In this document: piece after piece, positions 9,076 to 23,524 of the stretch | How the letters are laid out: every line of letters begins with the position of its first letter | Position numbering within the stretch: position 1 is the stretch's first letter | Origin: a virus | Length of the DNA: 64,000 bases | Strand: one strand, 5' to 3' | Virus record (IMG/VR): IMGVR_UViG_3300036770_001972 | Location: 1 to 64,000 of that record | Position numbers and translations under genes: made by a program | The notes under the pieces: generated by a model | The model's database searches: none | Seen by the model: the letters and a program-made list of their open reading frames with translations, nothing else | What the model was told of the DNA's origin: nothing

Positions 9076-9373
9076 AAGAGCCGACATGATCACCGTCTCC
9101 GAGGATGTCTTGTTTTGGGCATTCCGCTACTGCATCACTCGCAGCAGTTACGCCGCATCCGATGGCGTGAAGGCGATCCGCGACAACTGGGACTCTCTGT
9201 CCAATAACACGAAGATGCGGATTCAGGACGAGATCCGTAACTACGATTGGACGCACCAACACGACATCGATAAGTCCATGTGGCACAGTCTGTTATCGCT
9301 CCCCATCAAAAACATGGACAAAATGGTCGAATACCCGACCAACAGGGTTGACGGCAGGGTGGGTATAGAGTAA
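9068..9373 (+). CDS. conserved phage hypothetical protein, 101 aa
   Basis: Contains FWAFRYCITRSSYAASDGVKAIRDNWDSLSNNTKMRIQDEI in positions ~12-53. It resembles a common small phage protein with the pattern A.gR.tY....v...i..NWd.l...t...I..dI. I know no function for that family. It ends at 9373 inside the promoter of the next gene. Confidence 0.72.
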   Translation: MDKRADMITVSEDVLFWAFRYCITRSSYAASDGVKAIRDNWDSLSNNTKMRIQDEIRNYDWTHQHDIDKSMWHSLLSLPIKNMDKMVEYPTNRVDGRVGIE

Positions 9374-9376
9374 TCT
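9348..9376 (+). promoter_or_regulatory. sigma70-type promoter
   Basis: TTGACG (9348-9353), 17 nt spacer, TAATCT (9371-9376), overlapping the 3' end of the preceding gene. A leader of about 17 nt reaches the ATG at 9400. Confidence 0.55.
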
Positions 9377-9399
9377 TCTAGTGAAGAGAGAACTCCCCC

Positions 9400-9708
9400 A
9401 TGAAACAGACAGCCACCGCCGTCCTGACCCCTCCCGCCCCCGCGACCGAAACCGCCGAGAATCATTGGATGTCCTATAAGGATCGTCCCGCGACCATGTC
9501 GCTGCAAGAGATGGCGGTGTGGATGCTGACCAATAACCCGTCGATGGCTGTGTCCGTCCTGATGGGTGCCCTTGAGGAGAACGCGACCCTGCCCACGGGC
9601 ACGGACGGCAAACTCGTTGAGGTCACCGTGTGGGACGAGCAGGGCAACCCCGAGTACAACCTGACCGAGCAGGGACAGTTCTACTACGATCAGACCGTCC
9701 CTGAGTAA
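9400..9708 (+). CDS. hypothetical protein, 102 aa
   Basis: A Thr/Pro/Ala-rich N-terminus is followed by a helical centre (SLQEMAVWMLTNNPSMAVSVLMGALEE) and a beta-hairpin C-terminus with acidic and aromatic residues. No family recognised. It stands alone between its own promoter and a hairpin terminator. Confidence 0.75.
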   Translation: MKQTATAVLTPPAPATETAENHWMSYKDRPATMSLQEMAVWMLTNNPSMAVSVLMGALEENATLPTGTDGKLVEVTVWDEQGNPEYNLTEQGQFYYDQTVPE

Positions 9709-9731
9709 GACTTTCGGTTTCTCTCTCTGAG

Positions 9732-9758
9732 CCACCCCCGCCGTGGGGGTGGTTTCAT
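9732..9758 (+). terminator. hairpin terminator with TTTCATA tail
   Basis: An 8 bp stem (CCACCCCC at 9732-9739 with GGGGGTGG at 9745-9752, loop GCCGT) is followed by TTTCATA. Confidence 0.65.
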
Positions 9759-9766
9759 ACAAACAA

Positions 9767-9820
9767 CTGTCCTTCTGAGAAGGACAGATTTTCGCAAAAC
9801 TAGCCGTCTAAGAAGGACAG
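9767..9820 (+). promoter_or_regulatory. SD/anti-SD palindrome with repeated SD arm
   Basis: CTGTCCTTCT (9767-9776) and AGAAGGACAG (9778-9787) form a perfect 10 bp palindrome around one base. The second arm is repeated exactly at 9811-9820, where its AAGGA is the ribosome site of the gene at 9823. The first arm can therefore pair with either copy. Pairing with the distal copy would hide the ribosome site. It could also be an operator. Confidence 0.6.
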
Positions 9821-9822
9821 AT

Positions 9823-10101
9823 ATGCCGACCGCACCAAACCGCCCCCGCAACTCCCGCACCGCTAACGGACTCAAGCGAGGCGTTCGCATCGAATGGGAC
9901 AGCCCCAAGCCGAAGCGCAAGCCCGAGCCGAAGTTCGACCCAATCAAGTTCCTCAGCGACTGTGCCAACGATGCCGATGCGTACAGCGACAGGGAGCGTA
10001 CCGCGTTCCGCAAGGTGCTTGCGCGGGTGCAGGAACTGGAAGCCGAGGTCGCCGCGTACCGCGACACCGAGTGGGACAATCACACAAACGGAGCAGACTG
10101 A
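9823..10101 (+). CDS. hypothetical protein, 92 aa, basic N-terminus
   Basis: The first 40 residues are Arg/Lys/Pro-rich (KPKRKPEPK). The remainder is helical with a short coiled coil (VLARVQELEAEVAAYRD). Translation is likely set by the repeated AGAAGGACAG element immediately upstream. It overlaps the following membrane-peptide gene as TGATG. Function unknown. Confidence 0.75.
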   Translation: MPTAPNRPRNSRTANGLKRGVRIEWDSPKPKRKPEPKFDPIKFLSDCANDADAYSDRERTAFRKVLARVQELEAEVAAYRDTEWDNHTNGAD

Positions 10102-10220
10102 TGACTAAGAAGCAAATCATGAATTGGGTATGGGATCACCCCCTTACCACCACCATCATCATTTCGATTCCTGTAGGGATCGCCGTGATCGCTCTCGCAC
10201 TCAAGACCTACATCATCTAA
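10101..10220 (+). CDS. single-TM small membrane protein, 39 aa
   Basis: MTKKQIMNWVWDHP is followed by one strongly hydrophobic segment (LTTTIIISIPVGIAVIALAL). Positive charges before the segment suggest the N-terminus stays inside. It is sandwiched by TGATG and TAATG overlaps, so it is almost certainly translated. Candidates include an envelope or superinfection modifier; no direct evidence. Confidence 0.72.
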   Translation: MTKKQIMNWVWDHPLTTTIIISIPVGIAVIALALKTYII

Positions 10221-10369
10221 TGCGTAAGACCACCAAGAAGACTCAGTCCAAGCCCGTTGCGGAAACCGTAGTTTCGATCTGTTGTGATCTCATGATTGCG
10301 GGAGCATTCGTGATCATGTCAATCACCCTGTACAATCTCGTCACTCTGATGGCGAAGTACGGAAAGTGA
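10220..10369 (+). CDS. single-TM small membrane protein, 49 aa
   Basis: The start overlaps the previous stop (TAATG). A basic N-terminus (RKTTKKTQSK) precedes one TM segment from about residue 16 to 43 (VVSICCDLMIAGAFVIMSITLYNLVTLM). Paired with the preceding TM peptide, it may act in the same membrane. Function unknown. Confidence 0.72.
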   Translation: MRKTTKKTQSKPVAETVVSICCDLMIAGAFVIMSITLYNLVTLMAKYGK

Positions 10370-10370
10370 C

Positions 10371-10398
10371 TTGACAGCAACAGAACACTCGCTATACT
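10371..10398 (+). promoter_or_regulatory. sigma70-type promoter
   Basis: TTGACA (10371-10376), 16 nt spacer, TATACT (10393-10398). The leader to the ATG at 10440 is about 35 nt and contains CAAGGAAAG. Confidence 0.75.
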
Positions 10399-10439
10399 TG
10401 TAGCATCCCAACAAGGGAACCAAGGAAAGAATCGAAACC

Positions 10440-10667
10440 ATGCCACACCGTGTTGATCCCGAAGAGGACTTTGTTCCTACCCACCGTCACCGCACCTTCA
10501 CTCGCTACATTGTTCTGAGTGATGGCAAGACATTCGATGTACTCAGCGAATGTACCGAGATTGAGGTGCCTGATGACATCGATGATGTGGAAGGATACAT
10601 TCGCAATCGAATTCATAACGCCAATCATCCAACTTTTGATTGGCACAGCAAAGGCAAGACAGGCTGA
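10440..10667 (+). CDS. hypothetical protein, 75 aa
   Basis: A small soluble protein with a His-rich N-terminus (THRHRTFTRY) and an acidic centre (PDDIDDVEGY). It follows a near-consensus promoter with a ribosome-site-containing leader. No family recognised. Confidence 0.72.
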   Translation: MPHRVDPEEDFVPTHRHRTFTRYIVLSDGKTFDVLSECTEIEVPDDIDDVEGYIRNRIHNANHPTFDWHSKGKTG

Positions 10668-10714
10668 TTGTTAAGGGGCGGTTCAAATGTCCAAGACCGC
10701 AATATACCTGTCTC

Positions 10715-10906
10715 ATGGAACTACTCATCACAATTATGTCATGGACAGCAGCAGTTTGCGCTCTTTCAGCCTCCCACCTTTGGCTCTACAGTTGGTCGTA
10801 CCAACAGGGCTATGAAAAGGGAGAGCATGAAGGATTCGTAAGAGGCTTGAACAAGCAGCGTTCTTCAGGCACACGCAACAAGAACCGCCCCTTTGTGGGG
10901 GTGTGA
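10715..10906 (+). CDS. small membrane protein, 63 aa
   Basis: From the ATG at 10715 the product starts MELLITIMSWTAAVCALSAS, one TM or signal-anchor segment, followed by a basic polar tail with a GYEKGEHEGF segment. A TATACC six nt before the ATG hints at another leaderless promoter, but its -35 is poor. A weak G/C hairpin overlaps the stop codon. Confidence 0.6.
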   Translation: MELLITIMSWTAAVCALSASHLWLYSWSYQQGYEKGEHEGFVRGLNKQRSSGTRNKNRPFVGV

Positions 10907-10922
10907 TACAAAAGCATTCGTC

Positions 10923-11249
10923 ATGAATTCGCCCTCCACCACTCCGCACCTGAATTGTTTCCGCAACCAAGGCTTTCAGATTCGGTTTAGCAACGGCTAC
11001 ACCGTCTCTGTGCAGTTTGGGCACTTTCACTACTGTGCATCCCGAGACCTGAATGTCGCCTATGACGCATGGCGCACGGGCGACGATACTCACTTCTCAC
11101 CCAATGCTGAGGTTGCCGTCATGGATCCGAATGGGAACTTTCTCAAGTTCGATTCATGTACCGACCATGTCCGTGGACACACGGATCCCGATACCGTTGG
11201 CAAGATCATCGCATGGGTTTCGAACCTGAAGCCACAGGAGATCATCTGA
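10923..11249 (+). CDS. conserved phage hypothetical protein, 108 aa
   Basis: The central part (FRNQGFQIRFSNGYTVSVQFGHFHYC, then AEVAVMDPNGNFLKF) matches a small phage protein type I recall as FxNGyTvSVqfG...YC....aEvAv....G..., of unknown function. The C-terminus is a helix (DTVGKIIAWVSNL). The next gene begins 1 nt after its stop. Confidence 0.72.
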   Translation: MNSPSTTPHLNCFRNQGFQIRFSNGYTVSVQFGHFHYCASRDLNVAYDAWRTGDDTHFSPNAEVAVMDPNGNFLKFDSCTDHVRGHTDPDTVGKIIAWVSNLKPQEII

Positions 11250-11250
11250 G

Positions 11251-11649
11251 ATGAACGGGTGGAAAGACTACTTCCTCGTAGGTAACAACCAATACGGTGC
11301 GCCGTATGTCGTTGTATTCCGTGTCAACGAAGGATGTGATGTGGTTGGCATCTATGGATACACGCGAATTCATCCAATGTCGTTCAATCGGGATCCCCGT
11401 GTTGCTCCTCTGCTCCCTTCTGCCTTGGGAATGATTGTCACTTCCCCAAGATTCAACGCGACGAAATTCGCGGCGCGAATCATTTGGCAGGACTTGCTGA
11501 ACTACAAGCAATACAACATGAAGGAGACTTCCTTTTCGGATCTCTATCCCAATCATGTGTTCGATCCAGTTGAGATTGCAAAGCACACTAGGGAGTTTAC
11601 GCGACCTGATCAGTACTTCGTCAACACCCAGTACGCTTTGGAAGCGTGA
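11251..11649 (+). CDS. ARxxW-family protein (member 8), extended
   Basis: The first ~90 residues fit the family: beta-rich, ending FAARIIWQDLLNYKQY. About 40 extra residues follow the motif and the final GW is lost, which sets this member apart. A CAGGAG precedes the start. Its stop lies 1 nt before a CTAAATA late element. Confidence 0.78.
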   Translation: MNGWKDYFLVGNNQYGAPYVVVFRVNEGCDVVGIYGYTRIHPMSFNRDPRVAPLLPSALGMIVTSPRFNATKFAARIIWQDLLNYKQYNMKETSFSDLYPNHVFDPVEIAKHTREFTRPDQYFVNTQYALEA

Positions 11650-11674: not shown

Positions 11675-12604
11675 ATGGGTAAAACGCTGCTCACAGGCGG
11701 TTGGGGTCTCGTCGGTTCCGAGATCCCCGATAGTGAACAATACAAGAGACCCCGACACGCAAGCATGGACTTGTGTGGTTCTTATGACACGGATGTCCGC
11801 GATGCGATGCATCAATACGACATCAGCGAGGTCATTCACCTTGCAGCCAAGGTCGGCGGGGTAAAGGGCAACAACGACAACATGATGTCCTACTTCATGG
11901 ACAACATGGTGATGAACACGAACATTCTTCGTGCTTGCTCTGAGTTGAAGTCCATCAAGAAGGCAACTTTCATGCTCTCCACCTGTGTCTTCCCTGCAAA
12001 GGTGACATATCCCGTGGACGAGTTGCAACTCCATAACGGCGAACCACACCACACCAACTATGGATATGCATATGCAAAGCGTATGCTTGAGGTTGGTGCG
12101 CGTACCCTTCGTCAAAACGGAAAGCAAGCGCGATGCATCATCCCGTGCAACATCTACGGGAAGAACGACAACTATGACATCGTCAACGGGCATGTGATCC
12201 CGAGCCTGATTCATAAGTGCTACCTTGCCAAGAAGAACGACACCGAACTGGTCGTTTGGGGTAGTGGCGATGCGGAGCGCGAGTTCATCTATGCCCCCGA
12301 TATCGCACGGGCGGTCGTGGAGATTCATAACGATGAGCGCAAGGACGATGGACTAGACCTGATGATCGTCTCGCCCAACATCTCGTACAAGATCCGCGAC
12401 ATCGTATTCATGATCGCAGACTGCTTCGACTTCACGGGAAAGATTGTGTTTGACATCACTAGTCCCGAGGGTATACTTCGCAAACCTACATCTGCCCATA
12501 AGTTCAGGAAGTTCTATCCGAACTTCAAGTTCACGGGCATTGAGCAGGGAATCGCAGAGACATGCAAATTCGTAGAGGAGAACTATGACAGCCTTCGCAA
12601 ATGA
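11675..12604 (+). CDS. fcl: GDP-L-fucose synthase (GDP-4-keto-6-deoxymannose 3,5-epimerase/4-reductase)
   Basis: This 309-residue extended short-chain dehydrogenase has the Rossmann glycine motif TGGWGLVG (residues 7-14) and the family segment HLAAKVGGVKGN (55-66). The serine segment STCVFP follows (~102), with catalytic YxxxK as Y131-AYA-K135. The segment GDAEREFIYAPDIARA is the typical substrate-side region. It converts GDP-4-keto-6-deoxy-D-mannose to GDP-L-fucose using NADPH, the step after the adjacent gmd product, which its 3' end overlaps by 20 nt. Length is close to the usual ~320. Confidence 0.93.
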   Translation: MGKTLLTGGWGLVGSEIPDSEQYKRPRHASMDLCGSYDTDVRDAMHQYDISEVIHLAAKVGGVKGNNDNMMSYFMDNMVMNTNILRACSELKSIKKATFMLSTCVFPAKVTYPVDELQLHNGEPHHTNYGYAYAKRMLEVGARTLRQNGKQARCIIPCNIYGKNDNYDIVNGHVIPSLIHKCYLAKKNDTELVVWGSGDAEREFIYAPDIARAVVEIHNDERKDDGLDLMIVSPNISYKIRDIVFMIADCFDFTGKIVFDITSPEGILRKPTSAHKFRKFYPNFKFTGIEQGIAETCKFVEENYDSLRK

Positions 12605-13616
12605 GTGGAATGGAAAGACTGCCGTCATCACGGGAGTCAACGGACAGGACGGATCGTACCTAGCCGACATGCTTGTCGCCAAGGGCTACAAGGTGATCGG
12701 TCTCAAGCGTCGAACATCGACCATCACAACAAGTCGCATCGACCACCTGTACGACAACCCGTTGTTCAAGATGCATCACTATGACTTGCTTGATGGTGCT
12801 GCGGTGTCTCATATCATCTCGCAGTACAAGCCCGACGAGTTCTATAACTTGGCGGCACAGTCGCATGTCGCCGTGTCTTTCGAAATCCCCGAGTACACAT
12901 CGGACGGTATCGCGGGGGGCACACTCAAGATCCTTGAGGCTATTCGTAGTCTCAGCCCGACCACTCGCTTCTATCAGGCATCCTCATCCGAGATGTTTGG
13001 TGATAGCGATGATTACGATCCGAGCAGGGGTTATGACGAAGAGAGCCGCATGATGCCCGTCTCTCCGTATGCCGTGGCGAAGTTGCATGCTCATCATATG
13101 ACTCGCGTATATCGAAACGCATATGGTCTCCATGCATCGTCGGGCATTCTCTTCAACCATGAGAGTCCCCGCCGTGGCGAGACATTCGTGACCCGAAAGA
13201 TCACGATGGCGGCAGCGCGGATCAAGATGGGCTTGCAGAAGGAACTGCGTCTAGGCAACCTTGATGCCATGCGCGATTGGGGATTCGCGGGTGACTATGT
13301 CGAAGCCATGTGGCTCATGCTTCAGCAGCCCAAGGGAGATGACTATGTGATTGCCACTCAGCAGACACACAGCGTCCGAGAATTCCTTGACATCGTGTTC
13401 AAGGAGGCGGGGCTTGATTGGAAGGAGCATGTGGTTATCGACCCCAAATACTTCCGACCCAACGAGGTGCCGTTCCTCCTTGGCGACCCATCGAAGGCAA
13501 AGCGAGTCCTTGGTTGGGAGCCGAAGGTGAATATGAAACTTCTTGCAAAGATTATGTACAAAAGCGACCTTGCCGAGTTGACCAAACAGATGCAGGGCGG
13601 TATAGTACATGTGTGA
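12585..13616 (+). CDS. gmd: GDP-mannose 4,6-dehydratase
   Basis: A 343-residue protein with ITGVNGQDGSYLA (NADP-binding, ~15-27), NLAAQSHV (88-95), the active-site SSE at 134-136 (ASSSEMFG) and YxxxK as Y162-AVA-K166. FNHESPRRGETFVTRKI and RDWGFAGDYVEAMW are diagnostic of GMD. It makes GDP-4-keto-6-deoxy-D-mannose from GDP-mannose and feeds fcl just upstream. GAGGAG precedes the ATG. The two genes suggest fucose-type modification of the host surface or of virion proteins; a GT2 enzyme sits in the fibre cluster at 41.8 kb. Confidence 0.95.
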   Translation: MTAFANEWNGKTAVITGVNGQDGSYLADMLVAKGYKVIGLKRRTSTITTSRIDHLYDNPLFKMHHYDLLDGAAVSHIISQYKPDEFYNLAAQSHVAVSFEIPEYTSDGIAGGTLKILEAIRSLSPTTRFYQASSSEMFGDSDDYDPSRGYDEESRMMPVSPYAVAKLHAHHMTRVYRNAYGLHASSGILFNHESPRRGETFVTRKITMAAARIKMGLQKELRLGNLDAMRDWGFAGDYVEAMWLMLQQPKGDDYVIATQQTHSVREFLDIVFKEAGLDWKEHVVIDPKYFRPNEVPFLLGDPSKAKRVLGWEPKVNMKLLAKIMYKSDLAELTKQMQGGIVHV

Positions 13617-14802: not shown

Positions 14803-15477
14803 ATGTCTGTCAGAGAGACTTGTGTGGCTACCGCACTTGCTGCGGCTTCTATCTGTGGTGCAGTCAACGCAGATTTCATCGTGGTCAACAATCCAGTTGT
14901 GGATACAGTTGGCTTCTACTCAGATGCATTCGATTCAAAGGGTGCATACTTCTACGCACAGAGTGGAGCGCAAGCATTCAGTCTTGAGGATTCCTATACC
15001 ACATCGTCGCTCAAGTGGTGGGGTTCGATGAACGGCTTCAACGATCAGGGAATCTCAAACATCGATTGCTTTCAGATCATCGTTTGGGATTCGAACTTTG
15101 AGTCCCAAGTGTTCAGTCAACGGATTGATTTGTCAAACATCACGATGACTGATACGGGCGACTTCAATTTCTTCGGTCAGCCTGTGTATGAGTTCTTCGT
15201 TCCGTTGGCGTTTCAGATCACGGCTGGCAACTATTTCATGAATATCGGCGCACAACTCAATGATGCGGCGGGAGATCAGTTCGTGTGGTCGCAGGGCGAG
15301 GATGTCGATGGCTTTTGGTATACCGATGCGAATGGACAGAACAAATGGGGCGATTGGCGACCCCTCCCAAACTTCATCGGGAATACCGCAGGAGGTGCAT
15401 TTGTCATGACTGCTCCTGCTCCTAGTGCGATTGCACTCTTGGGTTTGGCGGGTATCGTCGGTCGCCGCCGCCGCTGA
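14803..15477 (+). CDS. secreted protein with PEP-CTERM-like sorting tail
   Basis: The 224-residue product has a signal peptide (residues 1-23, cleavage likely after AVNA), a ~180-residue beta-rich body with many Asn, Asp and aromatic residues, and a C-terminal APAPSAIALLGLAGIVGRRRR-type tail. This layout (Pro-Ser, hydrophobic stretch, Arg cluster) is that of PEP-CTERM sorting signals. The APSA.ALLGLAG...RRR version is particularly common in Phycisphaerae. In hosts such proteins are exported and processed by an exosortase. A phage copy, behind a late element, suggests remodelling of the host surface late in infection or a captured host gene. CAGGAG precedes the ATG. Confidence 0.85.
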   Translation: MSVRETCVATALAAASICGAVNADFIVVNNPVVDTVGFYSDAFDSKGAYFYAQSGAQAFSLEDSYTTSSLKWWGSMNGFNDQGISNIDCFQIIVWDSNFESQVFSQRIDLSNITMTDTGDFNFFGQPVYEFFVPLAFQITAGNYFMNIGAQLNDAAGDQFVWSQGEDVDGFWYTDANGQNKWGDWRPLPNFIGNTAGGAFVMTAPAPSAIALLGLAGIVGRRRR

Positions 15478-15632: not shown

Positions 15633-15836
15633 ATGGAACAGAAGTCAGGAACCAAGACCACCGAGTTTTGGGTAGCACTTGCTCCCGTGTTGATCGGACT
15701 GATCGAAGGACAGAAAGGTGACGCAGAGAACAGTCGTTACCTCATCGTCTGCGGTACGGCATTGGGATGCATGTATATCGCTAGCAGGACACTTTTAAAG
15801 TGGAATCCATCAAAAACAAAAGGAGGAGAACTATGA
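15633..15836 (+). CDS. holin-like small membrane protein
   Basis: The 67 residues begin with a polar KTTEFW segment and contain two hydrophobic segments (VALAPVLIGLI and YLIVCGTALGCMYIASRTLL). Similar small phage membrane proteins (K.GwKTTEFWl..., then ...y...Rt.lK) are often annotated as putative holins. AAGGAGG precedes the ATG. It is coupled to the cohesin/dockerin-type gene by a 4 nt overlap, so both are probably made late. Holin activity is inference from size and topology. Confidence 0.6.
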   Translation: MEQKSGTKTTEFWVALAPVLIGLIEGQKGDAENSRYLIVCGTALGCMYIASRTLLKWNPSKTKGGEL

Positions 15837-16594
15837 GAATCACGACAGCAATACTACTTGCTTTGGGAATTGCCGTATCCACACAAGCACAGACAGACCC
15901 AAATGCAAAGATCGACCTCACCATGATCGCACCGACGAGTGCTGTGGGTGTTAACGAGGAAATCGAAATACAGATTGTGGCTTCAGCACAGACTACACCA
16001 CAACGATACCTTGTCGCGGACATCGTCTTCGGTTGGAATCCAAGCGAACTTGAATTCATTGGTCTTTCCCATGTCGGTTCGCATCCGCTTCTATGGGTTC
16101 CCCCAAGCGGAATGCCATGTCCCTCTGGGTATCAGAACTGCGAGGGCATTGGTGGTGATTACACAGGAATCAACGAATCGATTCCGCCCACAGACGGCAA
16201 TGCCTTGTACTACGGATATGGAAAGTTAGGAAGCGTATGGATCATCGATGAACCCGTGCAGATAGTGAAATTGCGGTTCCGAGTCCTCACTTCGTTCTCT
16301 CAGAGCAATGTGTATTTCATACCCGAGATCAATATCAATGCCGAACAAAAGACCATCGTCTACGGCAGTTACATCCCTGGGCTTTCGACAACAGGTGTCT
16401 TGACGAATGCAACAGTTGTAGGGAGCATAAGAGAGGGCGATGTCGATGGGAACGGTGTGGTCAACTCCTCAGACTTGGCGCAGTTGATCGCTGCATGGGG
16501 ACAGACATCGTTCAAGGGAAACCCGTGCGACCTAAACGGTAACGGCGTGGTCGATTCTCCTGATTTGGGCATTCTGCTTGATAACTGGGGATAA
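15833..16594 (+). CDS. secreted cohesin-like/dockerin-type protein
   Basis: From the ATG at 15833 (AGGAG 4 nt upstream) the protein has a signal peptide (1-20). A beta-sandwich domain follows (~25-195) with cohesin-like strands (FGWNPSELEFIGLS, VQIVKLRFRVL). The C-terminus is a dockerin-type pair (~202-253): DVDGNGVVNSSDLAQLIAAWG and DLNGNGVVDSPDLGILLDNWG, each a calcium loop plus helix. This loop-helix-AWG form is characteristic of Planctomycetota secreted proteins. The tail recurs in the S8 protease at 20.6 kb. A role in binding other exported or surface proteins is inferred. Confidence 0.82.
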   Translation: MRITTAILLALGIAVSTQAQTDPNAKIDLTMIAPTSAVGVNEEIEIQIVASAQTTPQRYLVADIVFGWNPSELEFIGLSHVGSHPLLWVPPSGMPCPSGYQNCEGIGGDYTGINESIPPTDGNALYYGYGKLGSVWIIDEPVQIVKLRFRVLTSFSQSNVYFIPEININAEQKTIVYGSYIPGLSTTGVLTNATVVGSIREGDVDGNGVVNSSDLAQLIAAWGQTSFKGNPCDLNGNGVVDSPDLGILLDNWG

Positions 16595-18039: not shown

Positions 18040-18337
18040 TTACACCGATACTGGCCCTTGGGTTCTTCGATGGGATCGTCACCCGACGAAGAGAGTCATG
18101 TTTGAAAAAGACTTCAGCGGCGGTAAGCCGTTTATCAAGATTTCAGGCACAGGCTTCCAAGGCTTGGACGATCCCCCTCCGCGTCTTGTCATTCCGCACA
18201 CATCCCTTGGTGATTGGTCTATCGACCTGAACAACGATGACAGTTGCTACCTGATCGGTATTGAATTTGCCCGTGAGATTTGGCAGCGTATGCTAGACAT
18301 GGGTTGGATTCAGATCGATTACACTTCCCCCATCTGA
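18032..18337 (+). CDS. ARxxW-family small protein (member 10)
   Basis: The start is uncertain between ATGs at 18017 and 18032; both have weak ribosome sites and 18032 gives the compact 101-residue form. The product has Trp-rich N-terminal strands (GPWVLRWDRH) and ends EFAREIWQRMLDMGWIQIDY, the family motif. The next gene starts 2 nt after its stop. Confidence 0.75.
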   Translation: MNDYTDTGPWVLRWDRHPTKRVMFEKDFSGGKPFIKISGTGFQGLDDPPPRLVIPHTSLGDWSIDLNNDDSCYLIGIEFAREIWQRMLDMGWIQIDYTSPI

Positions 18338-18339
18338 TC

Positions 18340-18588
18340 ATGAGTCACTTCTACGCACAAATCGTTGAATCGTCCCGCAAGACTGTTCCTACCGCGAGGG
18401 GGCACAAGTCAACTGGCATTCAAACTCTTACACAGTCATACAACGGACAGATTCGTGTCCGCATGTGGCACGACCCCAAGACCAACGAGGACAAGTATGA
18501 GGTCATCCTTCAGCCGCATGGCTACAAGGAATCCGATGGCGGCATCGTCCTCGCAACAGGGGTTATTTCGGACGATAACGCCCCTTGA
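18340..18588 (+). CDS. conserved phage hypothetical protein (MSHFY type), 82 aa
   Basis: It begins MSHFYAQI and contains GHKSTGIQTLTQSYNGQIRVRM and LQPHG. This matches a very widespread small phage protein (MSHFyg.iqgsrG..tr.GtKssG......sw.g.i.v.......v...phg) whose function is unknown. It ends the operon before a new promoter. Confidence 0.8.
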   Translation: MSHFYAQIVESSRKTVPTARGHKSTGIQTLTQSYNGQIRVRMWHDPKTNEDKYEVILQPHGYKESDGGIVLATGVISDDNAP

Positions 18589-18629
18589 TTATCGGACGCA
18601 GTAATTCCTCCCCGAACTGGAATAGTGGC

Positions 18630-18657
18630 TTGACTTTTCCTCGGAGTTTGGTATTCT
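18630..18657 (+). promoter_or_regulatory. sigma70-type promoter
   Basis: TTGACT (18630-18635), 16 nt spacer, TATTCT (18652-18657); the leader carries AGGAGGT ahead of the ATG at 18680. Confidence 0.72.
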
Positions 18658-18679
18658 TTAGATGTAGGAGGTAACCACC

Positions 18680-18889
18680 ATGACCAACGACCTTTACACC
18701 CTGACGAACGAGCGAGAAGGTACTCGCTACGAGTTCAAGCGGGGAACTGGTGATGTTTGGGGTGGCATGTACCTAGTCACCCGTGTTTGGCTTGCCGATA
18801 ACGAGCGAGAGTACATGGGTGCCTATGACAAGAGTGCCGCCCGTAAGTATTGGGACAGTCTCGTCGCCAGCGGCTTCGTGAAGGCTTGA
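18680..18889 (+). CDS. ARxxW-family small protein (member 11, shortest)
   Basis: At 69 residues this is the minimal member: a short beta region (YEFKRGTGDVWGGMYLVTRVW) and the motif KSAARKYWDSLVASGFVKA, with GF instead of GW. It has its own promoter and an AGGAGG. Its TGA stop lies within the -35 box of the next promoter. Confidence 0.8.
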   Translation: MTNDLYTLTNEREGTRYEFKRGTGDVWGGMYLVTRVWLADNEREYMGAYDKSAARKYWDSLVASGFVKA

Positions 18890-18914
18890 CAAGAGCCGAA
18901 CGATTCGATATGAT
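18886..18914 (+). promoter_or_regulatory. sigma70-type promoter
   Basis: TTGACA (18886-18891, overlapping the preceding stop), 17 nt spacer, TATGAT (18909-18914). The leader contains AAAGGAA before the ATG at 18939. Confidence 0.78.
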
Positions 18915-18938
18915 TCGGGTGTGAAAGGAACTCCCACC

Positions 18939-19328
18939 ATGACAACCACGACCGCCTCAGTCAACCTACTAACCGCCTCCACCAACCTCCCCGCTTCGTG
19001 GGGAGACAAGAGCCTAGCCCTGCTTCGGCTAGACCGTTGGCTGTGGTCGGCGCAGGATCTCGTCAACAAGAACTACGCGACCCACTTTTCGAACCTCACG
19101 CCGTCTCTGCTAGAGATGTCTGATGGTCGCCGCTACATCCGCATCGACAGCATCGCTGACGGTGGCAGGGGGCAGCGGTCGGTGTGGGCTTTCATCGACA
19201 AGAAGACGGGCGACATTCTGAGAGCGGCAGGATACAAGGCTCCTGCCAAGCATGCCCGTGGCAACCTGTTCGACGCTCAGGGCGGTCTCGGTGGCTTGAC
19301 CCCCTACGGCCCGAAGTACCTCAAGTAA
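18939..19328 (+). CDS. conserved phage hypothetical protein, 129 aa
   Basis: The ATG at 18939 has an AAAGGAA box; an upstream in-frame GTG at 18921 is less likely. The C-terminal half (VWAFIDKKTGDIL, AAGYKAPAKHARGNLFD, then LTPYGPKYL) matches a conserved small phage protein I recall as Vh.FvdK.tGDv.k.a.wk.PAK..RGnif. Its function is unknown. An independent promoter and terminator frame it as a single-gene unit. Confidence 0.78.
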   Translation: MTTTTASVNLLTASTNLPASWGDKSLALLRLDRWLWSAQDLVNKNYATHFSNLTPSLLEMSDGRRYIRIDSIADGGRGQRSVWAFIDKKTGDILRAAGYKAPAKHARGNLFDAQGGLGGLTPYGPKYLK

Positions 19329-19343
19329 CCTCCCTCGGTGCGA

Positions 19344-19385: not shown

Positions 19386-19607
19386 ATGAACAACGACTAC
19401 ACCAAGAATCTCCTGCTTTTTGTTCTCGCTGCATCTGCGATTTCGTTCACGCTTGTATCCCTGCTGTCGGCGGGATACCTAGCCCTGTATCACTTTCTGC
19501 GCGATCACTTCGGTCTAGGCTTTTGGCAAGTGGTCTTTCTCTACGCAGGGTTCGTCACGGCACTCTCACTACTGAGCGTACTAGCCAAGTCAAGCAGTAG
19601 ATCCTGA
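19386..19607 (+). CDS. two-TM membrane protein, 73 aa
   Basis: Two hydrophobic segments (~8-36 and ~48-68; FVLAASAISFTLVSLLSAGYLALY and VVFLYAGFVTALSLLSVLA) are joined by a short charged loop. Size and topology would allow a holin or antiholin, but it lies in the early strand after a terminator and no family is recognised. Its 3' end overlaps the convergent lipoprotein gene by 18 nt. Confidence 0.7.
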   Translation: MNNDYTKNLLLFVLAASAISFTLVSLLSAGYLALYHFLRDHFGLGFWQVVFLYAGFVTALSLLSVLAKSSSRS

Positions 19608-20549
19608 AGCGGGATCCTGATTCGTTGTAGAAGGGGCGCGGAGTGCTTTCCGTGCCTCTTCTAGTTTTTTGAATCCGTTCTGTTCCTTGATCTTAGCGAT
19701 GATCTCCTTGGTCAAGTCGGATTGAACCTGAGCGGCTACACCATTGACACCGAAGATGCGCTCTTGCTCGTCAGGGGTCATGGTCTCCTTGAGAATTTGA
19801 ATCATTTCCACGATCTCACGAACGGCTGTTCCGTTCCGCTTGGCATTGATGGTTGACCATGCAATCATTCCGATTGCCGTCAAGAATCCCAACACCAAAA
19901 GCACCGCACCGACAAGCGCGATCTCCTCCATGTAGTACTGAGATGCAGAAGCAAACCCAATCATGAGAAGTCCTATGAATGAAAGGGATGCTCCATATGT
20001 CTTGTTGAGGAAGAACGCGACTGCGGCTCCACCCGCGATCAACAGAAACCCGATGACCCAAAACATACTGATGTAGCCATATAACTTCTCCATGGCTTTC
20101 ACCTTGCTTTGGTCAAGCATGACCTGAAGGCTCGTCAACGACTTCTCCAATTGATTCACTTCAGCAGTCAGTTTATTCAACTTATCGGTCTCTCGCTGTA
20201 GATCGTCAGCGGCCTCAATAATGTTGGTTGCCTTGCTGTCAATCCGTGTCAGCGCATCCCCCGCCAAATCGACCGTAGAGGGCTTTGGGGCGGCAGAGGG
20301 GGCTGTGTCACGGTTCGGGGCTACGGACGGCTGTAGAGCCAATCCCTGCCTCACCGTGGCGGTCTCCGCGAGAATTGCTCCCGCGTCTCGCTTGATGTCT
20401 CCTATCGAATCCTGAGCATGGTCGATAACCGAGTTCAGCGCAGCGGATGATGCCCCCGTGGACGGGCTGACCCGATTGGGAACCGTATTGCAAGATGCGA
20501 TACTTGATGTGAGTAGTGCCCCAAGGATAAGGTTTGATATCGATCTCAT
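19590..20549 (-). CDS. lipoprotein with coiled coil and three TM segments
   Basis: From the ATG at 20549 (319 aa) the product has a lipoprotein signal peptide (residues 1-20, SSIAS-C) and a Ser/Pro/Ala-rich exported stretch. Long amphipathic helices follow (~95-155, ending LNKLTAEVNQLEKSLTSLQVML), then three TM segments (~160-245) and a ~75-residue basic/acidic cytoplasmic tail. Outer-membrane lipid anchor plus coiled coil plus C-terminal TM is the topology of unimolecular spanins, though these have a single TM and are shorter. It follows the S8 protease gene by 8 nt. A leaderless late start is predicted. Confidence 0.78.
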   Translation of the reverse strand: MRSISNLILGALLTSSIASCNTVPNRVSPSTGASSAALNSVIDHAQDSIGDIKRDAGAILAETATVRQGLALQPSVAPNRDTAPSAAPKPSTVDLAGDALTRIDSKATNIIEAADDLQRETDKLNKLTAEVNQLEKSLTSLQVMLDQSKVKAMEKLYGYISMFWVIGFLLIAGGAAVAFFLNKTYGASLSFIGLLMIGFASASQYYMEEIALVGAVLLVLGFLTAIGMIAWSTINAKRNGTAVREIVEMIQILKETMTPDEQERIFGVNGVAAQVQSDLTKEIIAKIKEQNGFKKLEEARKALRAPSTTNQDPASGSTA

Positions 20550-20554
20550 ACTGC

Positions 20555-20561
20555 TATTTAG
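20555..20561 (-). promoter_or_regulatory. late promoter element CTAAATA, leaderless
   Basis: On the minus strand CTAAATA overlaps the TAA stop of the S8 protease gene (CCC-TAA-ATA) and lies 5 nt before the ATG of the lipoprotein gene. Confidence 0.6.
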
Positions 20562-21979
20562 GGACAGGCCCCCCAAGCAGAAAGTAGCATTCCAAGATCG
20601 CTCCCATCAACAAAACCGTCTCCATTGATATCGTTTTGATTTGTTCCCCACGAAGCCAAAAGAATTCCCAAGTCACTTCCATTCACCAAACGATCTCCTG
20701 TGAAGTCTGCGGGGCAAGACATGGGCTGTGCTGCACGAACTGCGGCATCTGCGTCTAGCATTCCCCATCCCGTGAGGGTGTCAAATCCCGCCGTACCAAT
20801 GTCCCTGCATGTTGACTGCATGATCGATTCCACCTGTGCTGCCGAAAGAGAAGGATTGACTGAAAGAATCAATGCCGCTACCCCTGCTGCATATGGCGAA
20901 GAGAACGATGTGCCGTCGATGATTGTGTAGTCTCCCGATCCATATCCATTCGATCCTGTTCGATCCGTTGTAAAGATATACTGACCCGCAGCGACGAATG
21001 CCAGTTTGCTGCCGTATGACGAGAACGATGCCTTCTGACCACTTCGATTCGATGCACCGACTGCTATCACTCCGTTTGATCGTGCAGGGAATCCAATGTT
21101 CGTGTTTCCTGAATTGCCCGAACTTGCGAAGTTGACCACTCCCGCATTTCGTGCAGCGACATATGCATTCGTCATGGCAGTCGATGCCGTGCCATAGTCA
21201 TTGCTGTTGTTCGTGACACGGACACCGTTTGCGATTCCCCAGTTGATTGCATTGACAGTCCACGATGTCTGTCCCTGCCACGATCCGCTGCATGGCGTAA
21301 CTGCTGTTCCCACCTTTGCGGATATGACCTTGCAGTCAGGCGCAACACCAACCGTGCCGATTGAGTTGTTGATGATCCCCGTGATACACCCTGCCACGGA
21401 AGTGCCATGATTGTCACATTCGTTGGTAGGGCCGCCACCCAAGATGCCATTTACGGCACCTGTGGTGAAGTCACGACCCGCTTGTTGGTTGATGTCGGGA
21501 TGATCCTGCTGTATGCCCGTTTCGAATACGAGGATGCGAATCGTGGGAGACCCCTTGGTGATCGACCATGCATTCGTGGTGTTCATGTCAAAGTTGATGA
21601 GTCCACCCGACTGCCCTATGTTGCGATGTCCCCAACATTGCGAAAAGCCCGCATCGTTTGGAATGACCTCATGCCGCGTGGCGGTGAACAGACGATCCTC
21701 CTCAACGAATTCGATATTGGGATTTGTCTTCAACGAAGCAATTGCACCGCGCATCGAATCGATGCTGTCCATGTTGACGAGTGTTAGATTCGGGATATGA
21801 GAGTAGTGTTCGGCACTTTCGATACCGTCGATCTCTGACAGTACGGAATCCTTATCTGCTCCATCCTTCCATTGGACGAAGAAGGTGTCGATGCTTTGCT
21901 GTGGTTGTGGCTGTGCCCGTCGAATGTCTCCACCACCGAGCATGATCAGGCTTGCGAGAATCGCTAGGATTGTTTTCAT
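20558..21979 (-). CDS. secreted subtilisin-like (S8) serine protease with dockerin-type tail; catalytic Asp replaced by Glu
   Basis: AGGAGG precedes the ATG at 21979. The 473-residue protein has a signal peptide (1-~17) and an I9-like propeptide (~30-100, ending NPNIEFVEEDRLF). The S8 domain (~110-415) and a dockerin-type pair (~422-473; NGSDLGILLASWG and DINGDGFVDGSDLGMLLSAWG) follow. Active-site His191 (DNHGTSVAG), oxyanion Asn289 (SSGNSG) and Ser358 (DGTSFSSP) are intact. The catalytic Asp of the (V/I)DTG motif is Glu153 in ILVFETG, read from a GAA codon. Whether this Glu supports activity is not known from sequence. Likely role: degrading or processing host envelope proteins late in infection. 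Confidence 0.92.
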   Translation of the reverse strand: MKTILAILASLIMLGGGDIRRAQPQPQQSIDTFFVQWKDGADKDSVLSEIDGIESAEHYSHIPNLTLVNMDSIDSMRGAIASLKTNPNIEFVEEDRLFTATRHEVIPNDAGFSQCWGHRNIGQSGGLINFDMNTTNAWSITKGSPTIRILVFETGIQQDHPDINQQAGRDFTTGAVNGILGGGPTNECDNHGTSVAGCITGIINNSIGTVGVAPDCKVISAKVGTAVTPCSGSWQGQTSWTVNAINWGIANGVRVTNNSNDYGTASTAMTNAYVAARNAGVVNFASSGNSGNTNIGFPARSNGVIAVGASNRSGQKASFSSYGSKLAFVAAGQYIFTTDRTGSNGYGSGDYTIIDGTSFSSPYAAGVAALILSVNPSLSAAQVESIMQSTCRDIGTAGFDTLTGWGMLDADAAVRAAQPMSCPADFTGDRLVNGSDLGILLASWGTNQNDINGDGFVDGSDLGMLLSAWGACP

Positions 21980-22045
21980 GATTACCTCCTGCACTAGTAC
22001 GAATGACATGCCGTGATGTGTTCACGGAAAACCAAATTGGCATTA

Positions 22046-22391: not shown

Positions 22392-22434
22392 GAGTCCACG
22401 GAAATCCGCTGCCCCACGCAAGCCGCGTCCTTAA
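22297..22434 (+). CDS. 45-residue Arg/Lys/Ser/Pro-rich basic protein
   Basis: AAAGGAG sits 6 nt before the ATG at 22297, a strong ribosome site. The product (MPRRTAIVKPKRPKKSTP... to APRKPRP) has about 40% Arg and Lys plus many Ser and Pro. It looks like a protamine- or histone-tail-like nucleic-acid-binding peptide. Its TAA and the stop of the convergent gp3-like gene share the palindrome TTAA at 22431-22434. It lies on the opposite strand from the surrounding structural genes. Confidence 0.6.
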   Translation: MPRRTAIVKPKRPKKSTPSLKPSDRRSRSSVKSPRKSAAPRKPRP

Positions 22435-22979
22435 ATCGGCACCGTCTGATAGGTATCGAATACGAAGTTCACCGTTGCTGTCATTGGTGACGGTTCGCTT
22501 TCGTTGTGTGTCAGAGTGAAGCCCGAGATCTTCGTGGGTATGAGATTGCTGAAGGTCATCATGAGAATGGGGTTCTTCTTGTTGTTGAGGAAGAACAGTT
22601 TCCCGTGATTCACATTGCCCTTGTATTCGGGCACGATCTCCTTGAAGTCGCGGTATGGAACTCCCGACCGCATCCACTTGACCATCTCCATGTAGTTGCG
22701 GAAGTTCTCATCGATGATGAATCGAATCGATATGTCAGAAGGTGCCCCACCACCAGGGAACTTGATGTCATTCGCAGCGAACAGGTGGTTGTACACGGCG
22801 GGTGTCGAAGATAGATTCGGTGTCTGAACAGCCGTGCAGAAGTATGTCACAGTAGGTACCTTCTCGCATATGAAGCGGAAGTTGGTGCTTGCTGCCAAGT
22901 TGGTATTCAGCGGATTGTTTCCGAGAGTACCGAAGTTGGTCAGTTCGGGGAGCCAGTTCTTTACTTCAGGTGATGCCAT
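22431..22979 (-). CDS. gp3: gp3-like tail completion/tube terminator protein (copy 2)
   Basis: The start is the ATG at 22979, overlapping the stop of copy 1 (TGATG). The 182-residue product contains ISIRFIIDENFRNYMEMVKWM and LFFLNNKKNPILMMTFSNLIPTKISG. These correspond to T4 gp3 VRFIVDEELKSWIGIYEWM and LYILDNSKTEIVMSINFYKPWVSDLSE. T4 gp3 (176 aa) caps the tail tube and joins the tail to the neck. Either copy could be the true terminator; the other may serve as another tube-fold protein (for example a gp54-like initiator). Confidence 0.8.
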   Translation of the reverse strand: MASPEVKNWLPELTNFGTLGNNPLNTNLAASTNFRFICEKVPTVTYFCTAVQTPNLSSTPAVYNHLFAANDIKFPGGGAPSDISIRFIIDENFRNYMEMVKWMRSGVPYRDFKEIVPEYKGNVNHGKLFFLNNKKNPILMMTFSNLIPTKISGFTLTHNESEPSPMTATVNFVFDTYQTVPI

Positions 22980-23524
22980 CACGGATCCTTGATGTCGTAT
23001 GAGGTGAACTGGAATGTTGCATCGCAAGTGATGATCGGTGCGTCAGCAACGGCAGAGTTAAACGGAATGTTGCTGAGTCCCGTGATCATGAGTCCGTCGA
23101 ACAGGATCCTCGCAACAGGATTCTTCTTATTGTTCAGCATCAACAACTGACCCGAATCGGTAATCAGGTTCAGCATTCTAGCCTGAGAGCCATCCTTGAA
23201 GAAGTCATAGTAGTTCAAAGACTTCTTGAACCATTCCGACATCTCAAACCAATTGCTGAAGTCTTCGTTCACTATGAACTTGACCGTCATGTCCCCGTGA
23301 TCGATCTTGTTGCCGAAGAACTTTAGTGAAGGAGCAAACGGCACAGGAACACGAATTGGATCCATCGATAGATCAGGGAACGAGACTTCGGTACAGAAGT
23401 ACACACCCTTGCGAACCTTGGGAATCATCAACCGAAAGTTGGTTGAGAAGGCAGGGTTCGTGTTGTCAGGCTGTCGATTCAGACTGCCATGGACGATATC
23501 GTCGGGTAACTTAGGAACAGTCAT
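22979..23524 (-). CDS. gp3: gp3-like tail completion/tube terminator protein (copy 1)
   Basis: This 181-residue protein shares with copy 2 the segments NFR(L/F), YFCT, a KFIV-NEDFSNWFEMSEW region and LLMLNNKKNPVARILFDGLMITGLS, all in the same order as T4 gp3. Its N-terminal ~25 residues (LNRQPDNTNPAFSTNFRLM) parallel copy 2 (LGNNPLNTNLAASTNFRFI). The gene follows gp23. A CTAAATA box six nt before the ATG predicts a leaderless message. Confidence 0.82.
   Translation of the reverse strand: MTVPKLPDDIVHGSLNRQPDNTNPAFSTNFRLMIPKVRKGVYFCTEVSFPDLSMDPIRVPVPFAPSLKFFGNKIDHGDMTVKFIVNEDFSNWFEMSEWFKKSLNYYDFFKDGSQARMLNLITDSGQLLMLNNKKNPVARILFDGLMITGLSNIPFNSAVADAPIITCDATFQFTSYDIKDP

Follow-up and report, generated by a model that had tools for sequence, protein, structure and literature searches.

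Can a subtilisin-type protease work when the aspartate of its catalytic triad is replaced by glutamate? Textbooks treat the triad as fixed, and an altered acid is commonly taken to mean that function has been lost. The question is raised by a gene at positions 20558 to 21979 (minus strand) of the window, the 64,000-nucleotide stretch analyzed here, which is part of the 102-kb virus record IMGVR_UViG_3300036770_001972. The gene encodes a 473-amino-acid S8 subtilase of the E-H-S (Glu-His-Ser) type. A preliminary description of the sequence had offered three readings of the altered acid: that the enzyme uses the longer side chain, that it relies on another residue, or that it is a pseudoenzyme. 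The first is the best supported of the three, by the invariant Glu, His, Asn, and Ser, by purifying selection, by the recurrence of the change, and by the Glu subtilase SprP. From the sequence evidence, we consider it very probable that the window subtilase is catalytically active, and probable that an active, secreted subtilisin-type serine protease with a Ser-His-Glu triad is the whole explanation.

The reading frame begins with an ATG at 21979, 4 bases behind a strong Shine-Dalgarno sequence (AGGAGGT, 21984 to 21990, minus strand, as are all parts of the gene). Sequence and model together place a signal peptide region and linker at residues 1 to 27 (21899 to 21979); in the model, residues 2 to 13 form a hydrophobic helix and residues 8 to 25 have low confidence. 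An inhibitor/chaperone-type prodomain follows at residues 28 to 104 (21668 to 21898), assigned by model and profile, with the usual strand-helix-strand-strand-helix-strand fold over residues 32 to 94 and a weak Fervidolysin_NPro-like match. The catalytic domain spans residues 105 to 415 (20735 to 21667). Membership in S8 is indicated by a match to Pfam PF00082 (2.2e-41) and by a phmmer match to 3whi (1.7e-38). Structural modeling, which the preliminary description had proposed, yielded a subtilisin fold and, apart from it, an alpha/beta prodomain (AlphaFold2, pLDDT 89.5); a Foldseek comparison of the model with solved subtilisins gave a probability of 1.00 (1.2e-27 to 3vv3). The dockerin tail claimed for the protein held in part: residues 425 to 470 show two dockerin-like repeats, within a C-terminal tail of residues 420 to 473 (20561 to 20722), but the PF00404 score of 14.0 bits lies below the cut-off of 22.9, short of a type I dockerin.

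Alignment places Glu153 (GAA, 21521 to 21523), which lies within RILVFETGIQQDHPD, at the position of subtilisin Asp32, so that the Asp expected in the D-[TS]-G motif of S8 enzymes is absent from this protein and from all phage copies. The remaining S8 residues are present: His191 (21407 to 21409) corresponds to subtilisin His64, the oxyanion residue Asn289 (21113 to 21115) to Asn155, and the nucleophile Ser358 (20906 to 20908) to Ser221. The frame, codon, and residue numbers of the preliminary description, and its statement that His, Asn, and Ser are intact, thus all hold.

We aligned the window protein with 30 IMG/VR sequences, for a total of 31 phage copies that are 58 to 99% identical. The count of Glu at this site, another check proposed in the preliminary description, gave Glu at position 153 in 31 of 31 phage copies, while the bacterial relatives are nearly all Asp. 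The full E-H-N-S set was found in 30 of the 31, the exception being a fragment that stops short of the Ser. Most of the tabulated phage copies use GAA and two use GAG; with Glu in every copy and two codons in use, a sequencing or assembly error was rejected. Synonymous sites are close to saturated among the phage copies; for pairs with measurable dS, dN/dS in the catalytic domain was ∼0.04 to 0.10, with a value of up to 0.20 in one near-saturated pair. The phage family is under strong purifying selection, and these ratios and the intact frames led us to reject a pseudogene or relaxed selection. A scan of all viral contigs for the motif E-T-G-[VI]-x-x-[ND]-H-P-D returned 19 stretches, only on contigs of the window subtilase's family, and the Asp version of the motif was found in 79 stretches of the same collection. 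Searches of plasmid and phage collections returned distant S8 matches only.

The closest bacterial relatives, ∼40 to 54% identical, come from Planctomycetota (mainly Phycisphaerae), Zixibacteria, and a few other groups, and nearly all carry Asp. In motif scans, the Glu form was found in none of 392 Planctomycetota genomes and in 3 of 132 Zixibacteria genomes, and the Asp form occurred 31 times, in 21 of 149 Planctomycetota genomes; no Glu motif was found in 22 genomes that contain Asp relatives. Among Bacteroidota, 1 of 296 genomes had the Glu motif, in a degenerate S8 protein (L241, genome G583) that reads ESG at the acid position and has lost its His and Ser motifs; this protein is likely a true pseudo-subtilase. 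A separate Asp-type relative, L058, has Asp in place of the oxyanion Asn (D-H-D-S), a pattern that we take to be that of the known PC2-type variant.

A phylogenetic tree built without column 153 contained three Glu groups: the phage clade (support 100/99), two Zixibacteria species, and a copy from the RBG-1 Zixibacteria genome, which is sister to an Asp paralogue of the same genome (100/99). The well-supported branches force three Asp-to-Glu changes, and a single change was recovered in 0 of 200 bootstrap trees. A single Glu clade was rejected by the AU test (P = 0.0027) and again (P = 0.0018) with a second tree that included additional Zixibacteria rows, omitted columns 153, 223, 224, and 236, and gave the same three origins. 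Glu therefore arose at least three times within a subfamily of Asp ancestors. In effect, nature has repeatedly tried the exchange of Asp for Glu within this one subfamily and has retained the outcome.

Two further positions, both in the substrate cleft, vary with the acid. Gly224 (21308 to 21310, aligned with subtilisin Leu96) and Gly236 (21272 to 21274, aligned with subtilisin Gly102) are both Gly in all Glu rows and thus across all Glu lineages, and in 3 of the 33 Asp rows of the tree; nearly all Asp relatives are bulkier there, mostly with Phe, Met, or Ala at 224 and with Ser, Ala, Thr, or Phe at 236. The only Asp sequences with both Gly residues are L023, L033, and L223, two of which (L023 and L223) are closer to one Glu group than any other Asp sequence is. 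It is important to note that the link was found post hoc among ∼330 columns, that its chance figure of 0.005 is rough and fails correction, and that a test on independent pairs has three pairs, which puts significance out of reach. In subtilisin, Leu96 forms part of the wall of the S2 pocket, next to His64 and Asp32. In a crystal study of subtilisin Carlsberg, the 98-102 loop was found to narrow the S2 pocket (PMC5821440). Resting on three events and a post hoc column scan, the pattern suggests that the Gly pair may be a permissive background that preceded the acid change. Loss of a bulky side chain at 224, in the S2 cleft beside the catalytic His, may have made room for the longer acid, and Glu153 would then orient and polarize His191, as Asp32 does its counterpart in subtilisin. 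A more ambitious version, in which the switch is repeatable given the permissive pair, the Glu triad is adaptive (in rate, pH, or specificity), and phages spread the gene as a mobile envelope-acting enzyme, seems to us rather unlikely. As one genome holds an Asp paralogue beside its Glu copy and candidate permissive residues exist, the effect of a longer acid on a subtilisin is directly testable.

Activity is probable because the Glu is conserved in every phage relative and originated recurrently, and the competing explanations must be weighed against this. Loss of catalysis, with the protein left to bind a substrate or to block a host receptor, would account for a catalytic acid that differs from the usual residue, and pseudo-subtilases are known (for example, CspC; PMC6636752). 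Against this stand the His, Asn, and Ser, invariant in all phage copies that reach them, the retained prodomain, and a replacement that is both conservative and recurrent. Moreover, the degenerate Bacteroidota protein lost its His and Ser motifs along with its Asp, unlike the phage family, which keeps them; we consider a pseudoenzyme, as the preliminary description had suggested, quite improbable. Reliance on another residue is a very improbable alternative. It would have the enzyme active, with Glu153 a bystander and His191 oriented by another acid, such as Asp189 or a rebuilt residue of the cleft. Asp189 and Asn190, which adjoin His191, are indeed invariant, but they are equally invariant in the Asp relatives and hence are no substitute gained with the Glu. 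No new acid is common to the three Glu lineages.

A further explanation is compatible with an active Ser-His-Glu enzyme and would refine it. The Glu form may be a slow or pH-shifted protease, retained because delayed autoprocessing would let activity arise only outside the cell or late in infection. That the swap recurs and is kept suggests a benefit rather than drift, whereas SprP, also a Glu subtilase, cuts standard substrates readily (PMC3937732). We regard this refinement as possible but doubtful.

SprP (PA1242) of Pseudomonas aeruginosa is the nearest functional precedent for the Ser-His-Glu triad that we favor. It is an exported E-H-S subtilase with the putative triad E262/H299/S499 and is able to break down skim-milk protein and to hydrolyze Suc-AAPF-pNA; activity is lost in the S499A variant (PMC3937732). 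A subsequent study purified and characterized the enzyme (PMC4618607). Compared by description, it shares export and a Glu-His-Ser triad with the window protein, and it differs in having a 233-amino-acid Pseudomonas-type domain of unknown function before its S8 domain and no described dockerin-like tail. Descent of the window family from the group of SprP is unlikely because the Glu arose within an Asp subfamily. The preliminary description named the existence of many active Glu-bearing relatives as grounds for refutation. This is borne out in part, in that SprP, a distant Glu subtilase, is active; literature searches found no other assayed Glu subtilase.

The unusual combination noted in the preliminary description is less so than it seemed, given that a subset of prokaryotic subtilases was named E-H-S as early as 2007 (Siezen, Renckens, and Boekhorst, Proteins 67:681, cited in PMC3937732). 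By the definition quoted there, in which Glu takes the place of the acid and the His and Ser are retained, the window protein belongs to that subset, with which it shares the S8 fold. As far as that account of the subset goes, the window family differs in being phage carried, in belonging to a Planctomycetota/Zixibacteria subfamily, and in having acquired Glu inside that subfamily from Asp ancestors; E-H-S proteins did not form one clade here. Thus, the Glu-type kind, though rare, is already known, and what is new is a phage-carried Glu subtilase family, the recurrent origin of the Glu, and the linked Gly pair. Subtilisin E, subtilisin NAT, and deseasin MCP-01 (S8A) share the prodomain and catalytic domain with the window protein and differ in their Asp32 triad, in Leu96 versus Gly224, and in the absence of a dockerin-like tail. 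Sedolisins (S53, Ser-Glu-Asp) also have the clan SB fold and a Glu in the triad (PMC11593635), but their Glu serves as the base, in the place of His, and their acid is located on a different segment. The window family keeps its His and has Glu in the acid's own position; the S53 arrangement of a Glu base and an Asp acid on one helix with an S53-motif Ser is absent, and the profile and motifs are those of S8. Among phage proteins, the window subtilase matches the "protease" PHROG 3677 (3.3e-45), and the other phage subtilases examined with a D-T-G...HPD motif have Asp, unlike the window family.

The record encodes a T4-type capsid, portal, prohead protease, sheath, tail tube, and terminase. Within the window group, the subtilase gene is preceded by the tail-tube genes, and its end overlaps a gene for a lipoprotein-like membrane protein. 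The assignment to a late region stands for the window phage, where capsid, tail-tube, portal, and prohead-protease genes adjoin, but in other T4-like phages structural genes are not adjacent, so that late timing, which this setting suggests for the window phage, may not extend to the whole family. Other records place the gene in at least four more contexts; examples are a site adjoining a ribonucleotide reductase gene and a site several kilobases upstream of a gene for DNA polymerase. Across T4-like phages, the family thus occurs in no fewer than five gene contexts. The larger records with other contexts are still T4-like phages. We rejected the possibility that the carriers are unrelated phages, as a T4-type capsid protein was found in 9 of 17 records searched. 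The terminases of five other records are 52 to 64% identical to that of the window, and only the gene position differs. Relative to the window, G556 has a terminase 64% and a protease 60% identical, and G549 and G551 have terminases 56 to 57% and proteases 76 to 78% identical. Protease identity is thus out of step with terminase identity, which suggests transfer of the gene between phages.

The tail module of the subtilase occurs as dozens of repeats in one Phycisphaeraceae genome, and the PEP-CTERM-like tail of a neighboring phage protein matches the same genome; from these matches we infer a Phycisphaerae-like host. More broadly, the hosts of the T4-like phages that carry the subtilase are probably Planctomycetota. 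The gene may have been captured from a bacterial subfamily of the Phycisphaerae/Zixibacteria type. Its product would be exported by Sec and its prodomain removed autocatalytically, and the tail would direct it to the surface of the host cell, as with the host's own secreted proteins. There it could cleave proteins of the envelope or surface late in infection, an envelope role that we put forward tentatively. A secreted protease appears to move among T4-like phages, probably of Planctomycetota, a group whose infection biology is little known.

Several neighboring genes deserve mention. The product of the membrane gene that overlaps the end of the protease gene (19590 to 20576, minus strand) has a lipoprotein-like signal, a coiled coil, and several membrane helices, with no family above the cut-off, and might be a lysis protein. 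The membrane gene stays beside the protease in close relatives (L077, L079, L085, L003, L004, L012, and L015). In L077, it is followed by a gene for a 441-amino-acid protein of no assigned family (10018 to 11340, plus strand); similar-sized genes follow it in L079 and L004, and none does in the window. Two secreted host-like proteins are encoded on the plus strand of the window, one with a true dockerin domain (15800 to 16594; PF00404, 1.5e-8) and one ending in a PEP-CTERM-like tail that is similar to a Phycisphaeraceae protein (14803 to 15477). The window also contains a pair of distinct tail-tube genes side by side, each matching PHROG 45 (22431 to 23027 and 22979 to 23524, minus strand), and two adjacent nucleotide-sugar epimerase-like genes (11675 to 13616, plus strand; PHROG 540). 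In the related phage L085, a 357-amino-acid protein (18260 to 19330, minus strand) combines a trypsin-like GGDSGSP motif with a C-terminal dockerin domain, the dockerin alone scoring above a Pfam cut-off. In another T4-like phage, L091, a Trypsin_2 family gene (9164 to 9958, plus strand) lies directly upstream of the subtilase gene.
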